Below are positions 26,212 through 50,568 of a DNA stretch of 64,000 nucleotides, in pieces; position 1 is the first letter of the stretch; every line of letters starts with the position of its first letter. The notes beneath the pieces are model-generated. The model saw only the letters and a list, made by a program, of their open reading frames with translations, did not search any database and was not told where the DNA came from. Where the stretch lies: positions 3,499,074-3,563,073 of the forward strand of contig NZ_CP041186.1 in the NCBI RefSeq assembly GCF_006517175.1, in the 5' to 3' direction. Both the position numbers and the translations under genes were made by a program. The DNA is from Persicimonas caeni (GTDB taxonomy: Bacteria > Myxococcota_A > Bradymonadia > Bradymonadales > Bradymonadaceae).

Positions 26212-26392
26212 TGAACCACTCGAAACACGGAAGAGCTATGGAGTACCATGGAAGCACTGAAGAACACTGAGCAATGCCACGCCGCGCCCGGGCAGCGCGC
26301 GGCAACCTGAACTCCGTGTTCACCTCCATCTTCCTCCACGCTTCCACGGTCCTCCATAGCTCTACCGTGCTTCCACGGCCTCAAGGCCTCTA
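26212..26392. repeat. ~180-bp palindromic element, copy 1
   Basis: Begins CATTGAACCACTCGAAACAC and ends near CTTCCACGGCCTCAAGGCCT. Inside, GAGCTATGGAG near the left end is inverted as CTCCATAGCTC near the right end. It is preceded by an 8-bp GCGCGGAA tandem and followed by CCTCCACGG-like nonamers. A second copy, about 90% identical by eye, lies 900 bp away on the other side of the GxxExxY gene in the same orientation. Confidence 0.85.
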
Positions 26393-26842
26393 CGCCTCAA
26401 TGCCCTCCCTGTCCTCGGTGCCCTCCACGGCCTCCACGCCCTCCCCGGCCTCCAAGAGCTCGAAGTTGGTATATCGCCTGATCCCCACCGTCGCCGACCC
26501 GAAGTTGAGCACCAGCCCACGCGTTGCGTCAGCCGCCTTCACGTACCGCCCTAACTGATTGTAGTGCTCATCGGTGATCTGCTTGACGACCTTGAGTTCC
26601 ACCACGACGGTGTCGGCGATCCATAGATCGGCCCGGCCGGTCGTGACCGTGCGCCCGGCGTACTCGATCTCGATCGAGTGCTCCATCTCACAGGCGATCC
26701 CCTCATCGCGAAGCGCCTCGCACAACAACTCCTGGTACAACGACTCGCGCAGTCCGGGGGCGGTGTTCTTGTGGATATCGATCGCTTTGCCGATGATCGT
26801 CTCGGTCAGAACGTCATTCGCTACTTCCTCATGATATGCCAT
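26390..26842 (-). CDS. GxxExxY family protein
   Basis: 150 aa from the ATG with GGAGCATACAAA upstream; a longer frame to 26959 would start in the 54-bp repeat and looks non-coding. The family core is TETIIGKAIDIHKNTAPGLRES, whose last part (APGLRESLYQELL) is a variant of the GxxExxY motif, followed by YAGRTVTTGRADLWIADTVVVELK and LVLNFG. These proteins resemble PD-(D/E)xK nucleases: the R-x-D-x-x-x and VELK residues fit a D...ExK site. Role is unknown. The last ~20 residues (GVEAVEGTEDREGIEA) are encoded by the nonamer tail of the adjacent repeat, so the C-terminus has been replaced by the insertion. Confidence 0.8.
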   Translation of the reverse strand: MAYHEEVANDVLTETIIGKAIDIHKNTAPGLRESLYQELLCEALRDEGIACEMEHSIEIEYAGRTVTTGRADLWIADTVVVELKVVKQITDEHYNQLGRYVKAADATRGLVLNFGSATVGIRRYTNFELLEAGEGVEAVEGTEDREGIEA

Positions 26843-26946: not shown

Positions 26947-27022
26947 CAGGGGTGCTCAAATCGCGGCCTAGACGGCGTCAGAGGCCGCCCCACCAGCCCG
27001 CAGCTCTGTTGACGTAAAGGCC

Positions 27023-27094
27023 GTGGAGGCCGTGGAGGCCGTGGAGGCCGTGGAGGCCGTGGAGGCCGTGGAGGCCGTGGAGGCCGTGGAGGCC
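27023..27094. repeat. GTGGAGGCC nonamer tandem repeat, 8 copies
   Basis: Eight exact head-to-tail copies of GTGGAGGCC, flanked by diverged units GTAAAGGCC and ACGGAAACC. It sits directly left of palindromic element copy 2; reverse-complement nonamers follow that element's right end. Confidence 0.97.
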
Positions 27095-34730: not shown

Positions 34731-34795
34731 TCACCACGGGGGCCACGGAGTAAGAACAAAATCTCTTCCCCGTGCTCCCCGTGTCTCCGTGGTGA
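34731..34795. repeat. CACGGGG-type inverted repeat, copy 3
   Basis: TCACCACGGGGGCCACGGAG on the left pairs imperfectly with CTCCCCGTGTCTCCGTGGTG on the right. Unlike the other copies it lies between two genes in the same direction (sctT and sctU), where it could weaken transcription into sctU. Confidence 0.7.
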
Positions 34796-34803
34796 ACCCT
34801 CTC

Positions 34804-35628: not shown

Positions 35629-35892
35629 CTAGAAGAGCCCTGGAAAACCCTCGAAGAGCATGCGCGTAAAGCGCAATAGCTGAGCGCCGATCCACGGCCC
35701 GGCGATGACCAAGCTCGCGAACACGGCGATGAGCTTGGGCACGAAGGTCAGCGTCTGCTCTTGGATCTGCGTCGTCGCCTGAAAAATGCTGATCAGCAGG
35801 CCCGTCACCAGGCTCGCCAGCACCGGTGGCGCCGAGGCGACCAAGATGAGCAAGAGGCCCTCACGAGCGATCTGCAAGATGTAGTCTTCCAT
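35629..35892 (-). CDS. sctS: Type III export apparatus protein SctS/FliQ family
   Basis: 87 aa, standard size, with two hydrophobic hairpin helices. Signature residues are REGLLLILVASAPPVLASLV and GLLISIFQATTQIQEQTLTF followed by VPKL, the invariant Q-I-Q-E-x-T-L-x-F-x-P-K. It forms the spiral around the export gate. Decamer repeats lie directly upstream, between it and the S23 gene. Confidence 0.96.
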   Translation of the reverse strand: MEDYILQIAREGLLLILVASAPPVLASLVTGLLISIFQATTQIQEQTLTFVPKLIAVFASLVIAGPWIGAQLLRFTRMLFEGFPGLF

Positions 35893-35896
35893 CGTT

Positions 35897-35920
35897 TAAG
35901 GGTGACTTAGGGTGACTAAG
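35897..35920. repeat. Decamer repeat, TAAGGGTGAC x2.4, left of S23 gene
   Basis: TAAGGGTGAC, TTAGGGTGAC and a partial TAAG. The stop codon of the S23 gene is within the last unit. Same family as the arrays before uraH and after the WYL-like gene. Confidence 0.9.
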
Positions 35921-36314
35921 CTCGCCGATTCGAACGCTTCGAATCTATCAGCCGCTGTAGAAAGTAGCTGACGCCATCGAGTTCATAATGGAGTTCGTCA
36001 GCCTCTCCGGCGTCTAAGAATCCCAAGTCCTGGCAAATGAAGATCTGTGTCGAGAGCTCGGACAGCGACGCACGGGAAATGTACAGAAAGCGGAGAAAGT
36101 CTCGATCTGAACCTCGAGCGGCTCCCTCGGCAATATTCGAAAGAACTGACACCGCCGACCGCCTCATCTGCGACTGCAAACCAAACTTCTCATTTTGAGG
36201 AAACGACGGCGTCACCCGATATACCCGCGCCACAAGCTCACGACCCTTTTTCCAAGCCAACAGTTCCTCATGCGGCCACTTCCCACGCCTCTTTTTCTTT
36301 CCGCGCCAACCCAT
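35916..36314 (-). CDS. Four-helix bundle protein (S23 / 23S rRNA intervening-sequence family)
   Basis: 132 aa. Matches the family of short helical proteins first noted in 23S rRNA intervening sequences: HEELLAWKKGRELVARVYRV, then FGLQSQMRRSAVSVLSNIAE followed by GAARGSDRDFLRFLYISRAS, LSELSTQIFICQDLGFL and LHYELDGVSYFLQRLI. The N-terminus adds a basic KKKRRGK run. Homologues are also found away from rRNA, often beside repeats; molecular role unknown. It interrupts the sctR-sctS order and is flanked by decamer arrays on both sides, indicating later arrival. Confidence 0.9.
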   Translation of the reverse strand: MGWRGKKKRRGKWPHEELLAWKKGRELVARVYRVTPSFPQNEKFGLQSQMRRSAVSVLSNIAEGAARGSDRDFLRFLYISRASLSELSTQIFICQDLGFLDAGEADELHYELDGVSYFLQRLIDSKRSNRRA

Positions 36315-36330
36315 CCGATCCTCCTCAAAG

Positions 36331-36420
36331 TAACCCTTAGTAACCCTTAGTAACCCCTAGTAACCCTTAGTAACCCTTAGTAACCCTTAGTAACCCTTAG
36401 TAACCCTTAGTAACCCTTAC
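36331..36420. repeat. Decamer repeat, TAACCCTTAG x9
   Basis: Nine units of TAACCCTTAG with one CCCCTAG variant and a final TAACCCTTAC. It fills the space between the S23 start and the sctR stop. No spacers, so not CRISPR. Confidence 0.97.
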
Positions 36421-36424
36421 TCGT

Positions 36425-37204
36425 TCACACGTAGCCAAGCACCAGCCCCTTCACGACCAAAAACCACCCGTCGACGAGCACGAAGAGCAGCAACTTGAAC
36501 GGTAGGCTGATCGTGGTCGGACTGAGCATGTGCATACCCAGGCTGAGCAAGATATTGGCGATGACCATGTCGATGACGATGAACGGCACGAAGAGGATAA
36601 ACCCGATGGTGAACGCCTCCTTGAGCTCGCTGACCACAAACGCCGGCACCGCGACGATCAGGTCGCTTTGCTCGAGGCCCTCGCGCTGGTCGGGTGGGCG
36701 CAACTCGCGGGCGAGCTCGTAGAGGAGCTGCTTTTCCATCGGGTGTGCGTGCTTGTTCAAAAAGCTCTTGAGCGGGGCGGCGGTGCGCTTGGCGAGGTCG
36801 CGGTACTCGTCGAAGCCGGGGCGCTCCTCGGTCTCCTCCATCTGGGCGACCATCGGCTCGACCTCCGTGTAGATCTGCATGCCCACGGGCGCCATGATGT
36901 AGATGCTCAACACGATGGCCAAGCCGGTGATCACCTGGTTGGGCGGCACCTGCTGCGCGCCGATCGCGGTGCGCAGCAAAGACAAGACGACCGCGACCTT
37001 CACGAAGCTCGTTACCATGATGAGCAAGAACGGCAGCAGCGCGAGCAAGCCCAACGCTACCACCAGCCCAATTGGGCTCTGCGAGCCACCGCCCGGCATT
37101 TGCGCAAACGCCGGCACCGCCGGCAGAAACAACGCACTGAACGTGATGAGCGAAGAAAATCGCCGACTACGACTGCGGCTATAAGCTGATTGACCGGCAC
37201 ACAT
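36425..37204 (-). CDS. sctR: Type III export apparatus protein SctR/FliP family
   Basis: 259 aa; GGAGAGGG precedes the ATG. A basic start and hydrophobic stretch ending VPAFAQ form a FliP-like cleavable signal peptide (cut near residue 34). Core: FLLIMVTSFVKVAVVLSLLR, then IGAQQVPPNQVITGLAIVLS followed by IYIMAPVG (injectisome-like QQVPPN), VPAFVVSELKEAFTIGFILF and SLPFKLLLFVLVDGW. It is the main ring of the export gate. A signal peptide is more usual in flagellar FliP while the core reads SctR, so it is intermediate in character. Confidence 0.94.
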   Translation of the reverse strand: MCAGQSAYSRSRSRRFSSLITFSALFLPAVPAFAQMPGGGSQSPIGLVVALGLLALLPFLLIMVTSFVKVAVVLSLLRTAIGAQQVPPNQVITGLAIVLSIYIMAPVGMQIYTEVEPMVAQMEETEERPGFDEYRDLAKRTAAPLKSFLNKHAHPMEKQLLYELARELRPPDQREGLEQSDLIVAVPAFVVSELKEAFTIGFILFVPFIVIDMVIANILLSLGMHMLSPTTISLPFKLLLFVLVDGWFLVVKGLVLGYV

Positions 37205-37258: not shown

Positions 37259-37312
37259 CCCCTCTATTACTGTTTTCGGCAGAGAGGGCCGATTCGTTGC
37301 GTACTTTTTTGG
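37259..37312 (-). repeat. 54-bp conserved leader element, copy B
   Basis: Minus strand begins CCAAAAAAGTACGCAACGAA and ends near CAGTAATAGAGGGG, 55 bp before the sctR start. 46 of 54 bases equal copy A in front of the GxxExxY gene, with most differences in a 10-base centre. Confidence 0.75.
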
Positions 37313-48055: not shown

Positions 48056-48480
48056 TCCTTCAAGAAGATCGCAACAGAAAACCACCAACCTCCCACAAAT
48101 TTCCACCCCACCCAAAACCCTCGCCATATCAACCCTTTAACCGAAACCCCCAGACCCCCAAACCCCTAAACCCCCAAGAAAACACGCAACAAAACCCGCC
48201 TCCTCGCCGAAAACCGTAATGAGGGATGTACTACATCATCCCACATCGACACAGCGAGGACGCCAATGACCACAAACGTCGCATACACCGCAGCCAAAGC
48301 CGATTTCCCGTTGATCACATCAAATCGGCCTGCTAGGTTATACATAACTTGTCAAAAATTGTTGCAGCTTTTGCGTAACAGCCGACGCGCCCCGTCGGCC
48401 CGAGCGCACCGTAACCGCTGGGGCGGTAGTACGGCAGTAGCAGTGCCCCGCAATGTTCTCTGTAAACATGAGGAGGGGGC
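48056..48480. other. Non-coding leader of the sigma-factor gene with palindrome
   Basis: No convincing gene. A 13-bp palindrome GATGTA-C-TACATC lies at 48225-48237, about 250 bp before the sigma gene, within GGGATGTACTACATCATCCC. The stretch is AT-richer (CCCCAAACCCCTAAACCCCC runs) than its surroundings. A short frame from 48266 that overlaps the start codon has no recognisable content. Confidence 0.45.
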
Positions 48481-49278
48481 ATGACTACGCGCGACGACAC
48501 ACCCCGAGGGCCCCAAGGGCCCGAAAACCAGCCACCCGCCAACGAGGCATCGGCCGACGACCTCCCCCCGGAGCGCATCACCCAGATGACGCCCGAAGAG
48601 CTGGTCGAATCGTACGCCGGGCTGGTCAAGAACACCGGCCAGGAGCTCATCCAACAGCTCGACTGCCCGGTCGATCTCGAAGACCTCATCGCCTGGGGCT
48701 ACCAGGGCCTGCTCGAAGCCCACCAGCGCTTCGACCCGGCGATGGAGGTCTCCTTCGCCAGCTTCGCCTTCTACCGCATCCGCGGCGCGATGTACGACGG
48801 CTTGCGCGCCACCGGCTGGGGCATGCGCGGCACCGCCATCCAACTGCAGGACGCCATCCAGCTCAACGACTACATGGAGTCGAACCTGCTCGCCCAGGCC
48901 AAACTCCCCCAAACCAAGTCGCTCGCCTCGTGCATCAAATACCTCGACGGCATGGTCGGCGACTGCGTCACAATCTGCCTGCTCCAAAACACCAAGCTCG
49001 AGCAGCTCTCACGCAGCGAAGCCGCCACCCAGGGCAACTACGTCGAACGCCGCGAGCTCATCGCCGCCCTGCAGGCCGCCATCGAGCGACTCTCCGACAA
49101 CGAGCGCGACGTGCTCGTCGCCTACTACATCGAAGACTACTCGATGACCGAGATCGCCGAGAAGCTCGGCATCTCGAAGTCCTGGGTCAGCCGCATCAAC
49201 GCCCGCGCCGTCCAAAAGGTCCGCCGCATCATGTTCGAGGATGGGGACCCGTGGGAGCTGTATATGATTCGGGAGTAG
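48481..49278 (+). CDS. Sigma-70 family factor, FliA/SigB-like
   Basis: 265 aa, preceded by GAGGAGGGGGC. Region 2 is DLEDLIAWGYQGLLEAHQRF followed by DPAMEVSFASFAFYRIRGAM (FliA-like, with the core-binding and -10 recognition parts); a divergent region 3 follows; region 4 is ERLSDNERDVLVAYYIEDYS then MTEIAEKLGISKSWVSRINA, a clear helix-turn-helix. It would direct RNA polymerase to a specialised promoter set. No anti-sigma factor is adjacent. Confidence 0.92.
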   Translation: MTTRDDTPRGPQGPENQPPANEASADDLPPERITQMTPEELVESYAGLVKNTGQELIQQLDCPVDLEDLIAWGYQGLLEAHQRFDPAMEVSFASFAFYRIRGAMYDGLRATGWGMRGTAIQLQDAIQLNDYMESNLLAQAKLPQTKSLASCIKYLDGMVGDCVTICLLQNTKLEQLSRSEAATQGNYVERRELIAALQAAIERLSDNERDVLVAYYIEDYSMTEIAEKLGISKSWVSRINARAVQKVRRIMFEDGDPWELYMIRE

Positions 49279-49290
49279 CTGGGAAAACGG

Positions 49291-49362
49291 TGGCATTGCA
49301 GGTCAGCAACGATGCCCCGGGGAGGCCTTCGCCACCCCGGGCAGCGTCACAAATCGGCAATG
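49291..49362. repeat. Short inverted repeat GGCATTGC / GCAATGCC
   Basis: Arms GGCATTGC and GCAATGCC flank GATGCCCCGGGGAGG and CCACCCCGGGC hairpins between convergent sigma and membrane-protein genes. Pieces like GCAATGCC and GATGCCCCC also occur before the Rieske and prfA genes. Confidence 0.55.
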
Positions 49363-49422
49363 CCGTCATCCTGCTGCCCCAAGCTATCCATACAACTCAT
49401 CCGTTGACAGCGGAGGAGGGTG

Positions 49423-50568
49423 TTAGTCGTGGGTAAGAGAGGCGCGGGATGCGCTCAAACGCTGCTGAGCGGCTAAGATGGCGAAGGGAAGAAAACTGAC
49501 CCCGTAACCGGATTGAAGAAGACCCCAGCCACCCGCCCAAATCGTACTTACGACAACGACCGATACGATCGGAATGGCAAGGACGACAGCCGCCCCCCAA
49601 AGAAAGTGCTCGGCCCTCGCCACTCGCCGCGCCAATAGCAACGCAACGCAAGCCATGATCGTCAACACAATCCCCGAGAAAAAGGGGACCACCGAATTAT
49701 AGAGACCCAGCTTCGAGGAAGTATGTAAGGGCGAGAAGCTCGCGGGGTCGTACAAAAAGAAGGGAAGTGTGACGGCCAGAAAGCTTGCGCCCGCCACCGC
49801 GGCCAAGCTCCAAGCACTTTTCCATCCAACTCGACGAGCAACGAGCCCCAAGAGCAGCGGCGTAACGAACAGAAAATGCGCCCGCGAAGAGAGTAGAATC
49901 CCCAAAAGACTCGCAGTCGCCGCACCTTTCCAGCCGGGTTGGTCCTTGGAGAGGGAATCGATAACCCACAGGCATCCAAGAGCCACATAAATGGAGTTCG
50001 CGAGAAGATCGGTGCCGGTCATCGCCTGCTGCATGACTGCAGGCGAGCTCAGTAGAAGGCAGGTAAAGAACAACGCATCCCATGAGTCGCGACGCTTGCG
50101 CCACATCCAGGCGAAGAAAGCGCCAAGCCACAGCAGATTCTGAAGCGAGCTGGTCCAAACCACCGCAAACGGTACGGCGAGCAGGACCGCGCCAGGCATC
50201 GGCGAAATCGGATTCTCCAGATAGGTCTGCGGATAGTACGGATAGCGGCCGGCCAAGAGTTCACCGACCGCCAGATTGAGTGCGTCATCTGCATCACTGC
50301 CAGCCCCGAAGATTCCAGCATTGGCCATCGGATACAACACCACAAAAGCCAACGCCACGAACCCGAAGAGGCCGACGCTGGCCCAGCGAATATGCCGCGC
50401 GCTGACCCTCTTTCGCAGCGCCGGGTAGAAATGGCACACAGCATAAATTGCGGCCGCATTGAGCGGTAGGTACGCAGCGAGCCCCGCACCTCCAAAGTAC
50501 TTGTAAATGACCCCCAGCCCGGTAAAGCTCAGGCTGAGAAATAGCGCGGCAAGTAATCCATTTGGCAT
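49423..50568 (-). CDS. Polytopic membrane protein, GT87/DUF2029-like mannosyltransferase
   Basis: 381 aa with roughly ten helices. The luminal loop GSDADDALNLAVGELLAGRY and PYYPQTYLENPISPMPGAVL, with DADD in place of the catalytic Asp and a later P-x-P-G, is what GT-C glycosyltransferases using lipid-linked sugars show. Closest kind is GT87/PimE-like; not certain. Twelve bases separate it from the FG-GAP protein gene upstream, so they are probably co-transcribed. Confidence 0.7.
   Translation of the reverse strand: MPNGLLAALFLSLSFTGLGVIYKYFGGAGLAAYLPLNAAAIYAVCHFYPALRKRVSARHIRWASVGLFGFVALAFVVLYPMANAGIFGAGSDADDALNLAVGELLAGRYPYYPQTYLENPISPMPGAVLLAVPFAVVWTSSLQNLLWLGAFFAWMWRKRRDSWDALFFTCLLLSSPAVMQQAMTGTDLLANSIYVALGCLWVIDSLSKDQPGWKGAATASLLGILLSSRAHFLFVTPLLLGLVARRVGWKSAWSLAAVAGASFLAVTLPFFLYDPASFSPLHTSSKLGLYNSVVPFFSGIVLTIMACVALLLARRVARAEHFLWGAAVVLAIPIVSVVVVSTIWAGGWGLLQSGYGVSFLPFAILAAQQRLSASRASLTHD

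Follow-up and report, generated by a model that had tools for sequence, protein, structure and literature searches.

In the genome of Persicimonas caeni, within the 64,000-nucleotide stretch analysed here (contig NZ_CP041186.1, positions 3,499,074 to 3,563,073; hereafter the window), a gene of the S23 (23S_rRNA_IVP) family lies between sctR and sctS, two adjacent genes of a type III export operon. We conclude that this locus is probably a selfish cassette akin to the intervening sequences (IVSs) of rRNA genes, with the S23 gene in the loop between inverted arrays of a short repeat unit and with its protein serving the cognate array family. Judged from its sequence, the cassette very likely has this anatomy. 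That S23 is also the trans-acting factor by which the arrays spread is a further step, and here we see the chances as about even.

The preliminary description of this DNA placed an S23 gene between decamer arrays at the sctR-sctS junction, and profile searches together with Tandem Repeats Finder confirm the arrangement. In transcript order, the sctR stop codon is followed, after 5 nt, by nine decamers, an AGGAGG motif, the S23 gene, about 2.4 inverted decamers and the start of sctS. The S23 gene (35916..36314, minus strand) is intact and encodes a four-helix-bundle protein of 132 aa (PF05635, E=6e-35; TIGR02436, E=2e-33); the AGGAGG, a good Shine-Dalgarno sequence, lies at 36320-36325. The sctR-side arm consists of nine TAACCCTTAG units (36329..36419, plus strand; 9.1 copies with 97% matches), a copy number and fidelity that do not arise by chance. 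The sctS-side arm (35897..35920, minus strand; TAAGGGTGACTTAGGGTGACTAAG on the plus strand) has about 2.4 units, inverted with respect to the other array, and lies shortly before the start of sctS. The first unit of this arm includes the stop codon of the S23 gene, 23 nt from sctS, and no obvious Shine-Dalgarno sequence is left in front of the latter gene. The host genes are sctR, upstream of the insertion (36425..37204, minus strand; TIGR01102, E=4.5e-70, above cut-off), and sctS, downstream of it (35629..35892, minus strand; PF01313, E=4e-31), both coding for parts of the export apparatus. Two-unit decamer matches occur 16 times in the window, against 0.00 expected from shuffles of it. In the predicted RNA fold, positions 35897-35920 pair with 36396-36419; these 23 pairs close the S23 open reading frame (ORF), and the ends of the cassette could thus form a stem around the ORF, as the ends of an IVS do.

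Comparison with relatives indicates that the cassette was inserted. We searched 57 genomes for SctR and found it in 40; apart from the home genome, 17 of these belong to same-family relatives. In all 17, S23 is missing from the sctR-sctS junction; its presence in P. caeni is therefore a lineage-specific insertion. This result supports the earlier proposal that array and gene form one inserted cassette, and excludes the alternative of an old, stable operon member kept by all relatives. The spacing between sctR and sctS is 2-92 nt in 16 of the 17, and 23 nt in the nearest relative (G008, whose SctR is 80% identical). The remaining genome, G017, has a spacing of about 390 nt, occupied by a gene-less element with long inverted ends (L112); its unit is other than the decamer, and by its sequence the element is independent of the home-genome cassette. 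Short repetitive spacers are present at this junction in G014 and G019.

The decamer is not confined to this locus. Pattern searches, which supplied all of our genome-wide unit counts, returned 64 exact two-unit matches at tens of places in the home genome (8.05 Mb), and 151 matches with at most three mismatches to TAACCCTTAG pairs; the same kind of search found none in 56 relatives. The dispersed arrays that we inspected are mostly convergent inverted pairs situated by stop codons; the loop, some tens of bases long, holds no gene. The S23 locus shares the convergent orientation of these hairpins, with the gene sitting in the loop. It had been suggested that the same decamer might flank further S23 genes, and this holds only in part: the decamer does recur at tens of loci, as gene-less inverted pairs, but the other S23 genes of the home genome, which has five full copies and one fragment in all, lack it, each lying between short repeats of its own. 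The generalization thus needs to be reworded: as far as the sequences tell, each S23 gene tends to own a complementary array pair.

In the Xanthomonadaceae, flanking and dispersed units correspond. In Xanthomonas, Luteimonas, Dyella, Rhodanobacter and Dokdonella, an S23 gene of the XCC0516 family is found between accB and accC (names read by eye from the neighbouring sequence). Its flanks carry GGGAATC-like units in the first three genera and GGGATTC in the last two. Genome-wide, GGGAATC occurs 155, 70 and 84 times in three Xanthomonas genomes, 149 times in Luteimonas, 5 times in Dyella, 16 times in Dokdonella and not at all in Rhodanobacter; GGGATTC occurs 72 times in Rhodanobacter, 200 times in Dokdonella, 6-17 times in Xanthomonas and not at all in Luteimonas or Dyella. 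Flank unit and dispersed unit therefore switch together between genera at one and the same accB-accC position. A Geobacter whose S23 gene has CGGRACT flanks contains 24 copies of CGGRACT, many inside the S23 arrays and the rest at seven other sites, while every other genome counted has at most one. In the cases tested, then, the unit that flanks S23 is, in sequence, the unit dispersed through the genome. These unit-by-genome counts, like those of the decamer (64 versus 0 in 56 relatives), show gene-less dispersed copies in the genome with the gene and their absence from genomes without it.

Complementary flanks are also a wider property of S23 genes. We compared the 600 bp to the left of a gene with the 600 bp to its right and scored their local complementarity. 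Among 47 S23 loci from the home genome and its relatives, 31 reached a score of at least 44, compared with 3 of 573 control genes from the same genomes (Fisher 4e-37) and 2 of 400 random places (1e-33). In a wider set of 79 loci from other phyla, where a pass meant a score of at least 36 that also exceeded 50 shuffles, 31 loci passed, as against none of 60 distal controls taken from the same loci (Fisher 2e-9). The flank unit is mostly 7 bp in length, with units of 8-10 bp occurring as well, and many of the wider-set loci that fail nevertheless have a sub-threshold period of 7. On cyanobacterial plasmids, S23 is found in the order cas6-S23-cas4, between cmr2 and cmr3, and in nrdB-S23-nrdA, that is, between two ribonucleotide reductase genes; in four of ten plasmid cases the flanks score well above shuffles (57-63 or similar), and short heptamer remnants are seen in others. 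The presence of 23S_rRNA_IVP genes in cas loci has been noted previously (PMC3936711). Nor is S23 the sole cargo of this kind, since genes of the GxxExxY family (TIGR04256) have flank scores of at least 44 in 12 of 17 loci (Fisher 8e-19).

These observations suggest how such a cassette could live in its host. Inserted between two adjacent operon genes, with inverted short-unit arrays as its arms, it would be transcribed with the operon, and the arms would pair in the sct transcript through the 23 predicted pairs. By analogy with rRNA IVSs, RNase III might cut the resulting stem, and such cutting would make the insertion tolerable within the operon; we consider this processing of the sct transcript conceivable but rather doubtful. 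The S23 protein, for its part, would recognize its own array unit, either as DNA or as an RNA hairpin, and promote the copying of arrays. The S23-bearing locus would then be the autonomous copy, and the gene-less hairpins its non-autonomous offspring. That S23 should act on its own unit is suggested by the match between flank unit and dispersed unit.

Several observations weigh against this interpretation. At the P. caeni locus, the sctS-side arm is short, the complementarity of left and right flanks taken alone (33) barely exceeds the shuffle maximum (32), and the z-score of the predicted RNA fold is only -2.1; the reality of the arm is argued instead from its membership in the genome-wide decamer family. 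We saw no target-site duplication, defined ends or transposition, and found no enzyme motif. About one-third of the S23 loci in the relatives, and more than half of those in the wider set, fail the flank test, and one subgroup (L089, L090, L094 and L189, of the MNFRGYHGLTVWNRAVD type) resembles an ordinary fixed gene. In the Xanthomonadaceae, S23 is a stable neighbour of accB and accC, and thus is not moving often in that family. S23 runs antisense to its host operon in two of the ten cases from plasmids, and excision therefore cannot serve S23 expression there. Finally, the density of arrays does not track S23 content in every genome, although samples were small and the results mixed: G016, with three S23 genes, has no periodic arrays in 260 kb, and G013, with no S23 gene, has five in 180 kb, most of them of period 12. 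We accordingly abandoned periodic-array density as a simple marker of S23 content.

Another possibility is that the arrays form a repeat family in their own right (REP/BIME-like or driven by slippage), and that S23 merely lands or is tolerated in the hairpins without a role in their spread. Tens of decamer arrays do lie away from any S23 gene, those inspected being gene-less, and short-unit arrays could grow by slippage. However, periodic arrays are scarce between genes (11-12 in 464 kb), and landing by chance therefore cannot give complementary flanks at 31 of 47 S23 loci; much of the pattern could still follow if insertion strongly favoured arrays. The joint change of flank unit and dispersed unit between genera at accB-accC also speaks against independence. 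On balance we judge this explanation unlikely.

It is far less likely that S23 has been domesticated in the sct operon, either to work with the export apparatus or to set sctS expression by translational coupling. The intact gene with its good Shine-Dalgarno sequence, the 23 nt between its stop codon and an sctS gene lacking such a sequence, and the promoter-like motif (see below) that the sct operon has in common with other S23 genes would all suit such a role. Nonetheless, the gene is missing from this junction in every same-family relative, and genes of its type are found elsewhere in the unrelated acc, cmr, cas and nrd operons. Less credible still is that a Y1 (IS200-like, RAYT-type) transposase moves the arrays, with S23 as passenger or cofactor: Y1_Tnp-type genes are numerous in the home genome (profiles confirm three) and have the promoter-like motif in common with S23 genes, but none of the ten inspected has decamers in its flanks, most having instead their own REP-like palindrome ACGGTGTCAGACACCGT or other repeats, and we rejected Y1/RAYT as the mobiliser of the decamers.

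Returning to the S23 protein and its proposed service to the arrays, we know of no function established for S23 proteins since their discovery in rRNA intervening sequences. The P. caeni protein scores above the curated cut-offs of its family (120.1 bits vs 33.8 for PF05635; 114.7 vs 24 for TIGR02436), and an alignment of it with 12 homologues matches PDB 2gsc (XCC0516) at 1.6e-42. Besides its own family, the protein matches only bAvd, and that weakly (E=1e-5). Homology between PF05635 and the Avd of diversity-generating retroelements has been noted (PMC10053308); the two belong to related fold families, but S23 falls below the Avd cut-offs (DivGenRetAVD, 23.5 bits vs 80). The Y1 transposase domain of RAYTs is absent from these matches. 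A search for S23 on phages gave zero matches. For two Xanthomonas, the ratio of nonsynonymous to synonymous rates (dN/dS) of S23 is about 0.06; across genera of Xanthomonadaceae it is 0.14-0.28 where dS was computable. Thus, the gene is under purifying selection in this family, and its protein is maintained for some function.

The closest known counterpart is the 23S rRNA IVS of Coxiella and Leptospira, which likewise places an S23-family ORF inside a transcribed host gene, in the loop that its terminal inverted repeats enclose. In Coxiella, an inverted-repeat stem of 28 bp, accompanied by tandem heptamers, surrounds the ORF, and the IVS is excised by RNase III (PMC4990558); the short tandem units beside the S23 ORF are a further likeness. 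The P. caeni cassette differs in being hosted by a protein operon, in having decamer arrays for arms and in the dispersal of gene-less arm copies through the genome. We call it IVS-like, and not an rRNA IVS, because its site is the sctR-sctS junction and not an rRNA gene. The GGGAATC heptamer arrays of Xanthomonas resemble the decamers in being arrays of short units: they are dispersed between genes, many as convergent inverted pairs, and generally are not found with mobile elements; S23 is not mentioned in that report (Rehm et al. 2015, PMC4692102). To these arrays the present work adds the S23 gene at accB-accC with its GGGAATC unit. The TAACTGA repeats of marine Beggiatoaceae are also dispersed intergenic heptamers, and in the report on them a repeat-binding protein is put forward as possibly being the mobile element, with no link to S23 proposed (PMC4679880). 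In RAYT/REP systems, too, copies of a dispersed palindromic repeat lie on either side of a gene that is matched to this repeat family; S23, however, is a four-helix bundle without known catalytic motif, not a Y1 transposase. In the open-access literature searched, we found no paper that links S23 to dispersed arrays or to tandem or inverted repeats. The S23 family, the rRNA IVS and dispersed heptamers are each already known, whereas the link between S23 and dispersed arrays appears to be new.

The window holds further elements of related form. A GxxExxY gene (TIGR04256; 26390-26842, minus strand) lies between complementary 9-bp arrays, CCACGGCCT and AGGCCGTGG, at 26372-26454 and 27018-27094, along with a larger inverted repeat (L281, score 125); by its sequence, this locus is a second cassette, with the anatomy of the S23 cassette and another gene. 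Between sctT and sctU is a gene-less inverted repeat of the CCACGGAG type (34735-34800). In G017 and G019, a GxxExxY gene lies downstream of sctR on the same contig, by its distance probably around the sctT-sctU junction. Elsewhere in the home genome, near-identical Y1_Tnp-type genes (MGHPLRNQEKD...; L048, L049, L061 and L066-L069) have a conserved upstream region and the REP-like palindrome in their flanks, and a gene read from its sequence as Y1-type (L057) has GGAGGCAGCGCTTCGAGCGCTGGTGGTT-like repeat arrays on both sides.

Upstream of sctR is the promoter-like motif CGCAACGAAT...TGCCGAAAAC (37272..37301, minus strand), which has 34 exact sites in the genome as against none for a reversed control pattern, and which also precedes the home-genome S23 genes L008-L011. 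In the form CGCAACRAAT...GCCGAWAAC, it is seen upstream of sctR, S23 genes, Y1 transposases and a GxxExxY gene. It also precedes genes that we take, by reading their sequences and not from profile matches, to be recA-like, ssb-like and FlhA/SctV-like. These sites possibly constitute a shared alternative-sigma regulon. A sigma factor with Sigma70_r2 and r4 domains is encoded near the sct genes (48453-49436, plus strand); it is the genome's second-best FliA/WhiG match, under the cut-off, and is a candidate reader of the motif.

Extended to the family, our reading would make S23 proteins the trans-acting factors of a widespread type of mobile hairpin array, bacterial and in some cases archaeal, with each protein co-evolving with one unit of 7-10 bp. 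The gene-bearing cassette would be the autonomous form, the heptamer and decamer arrays of xanthomonads and cyanobacteria its gene-less offspring, and the rRNA IVS one special landing site. We offer this generalization tentatively, at somewhat short of an even chance. To our knowledge, no source was known for the heptamer arrays dispersed in xanthomonads and cyanobacteria, and these results point to the S23 gene as a likely owner of such repeat families of unexplained origin. The match between S23 and array unit opens a direct test, namely, whether each S23 protein binds and acts on its own repeat. If the proposal is true, it would explain why S23 recurs between partner genes in conserved operons (sct, acc, cmr, cas and nrd), where it has at times been taken for a functional member of those systems.
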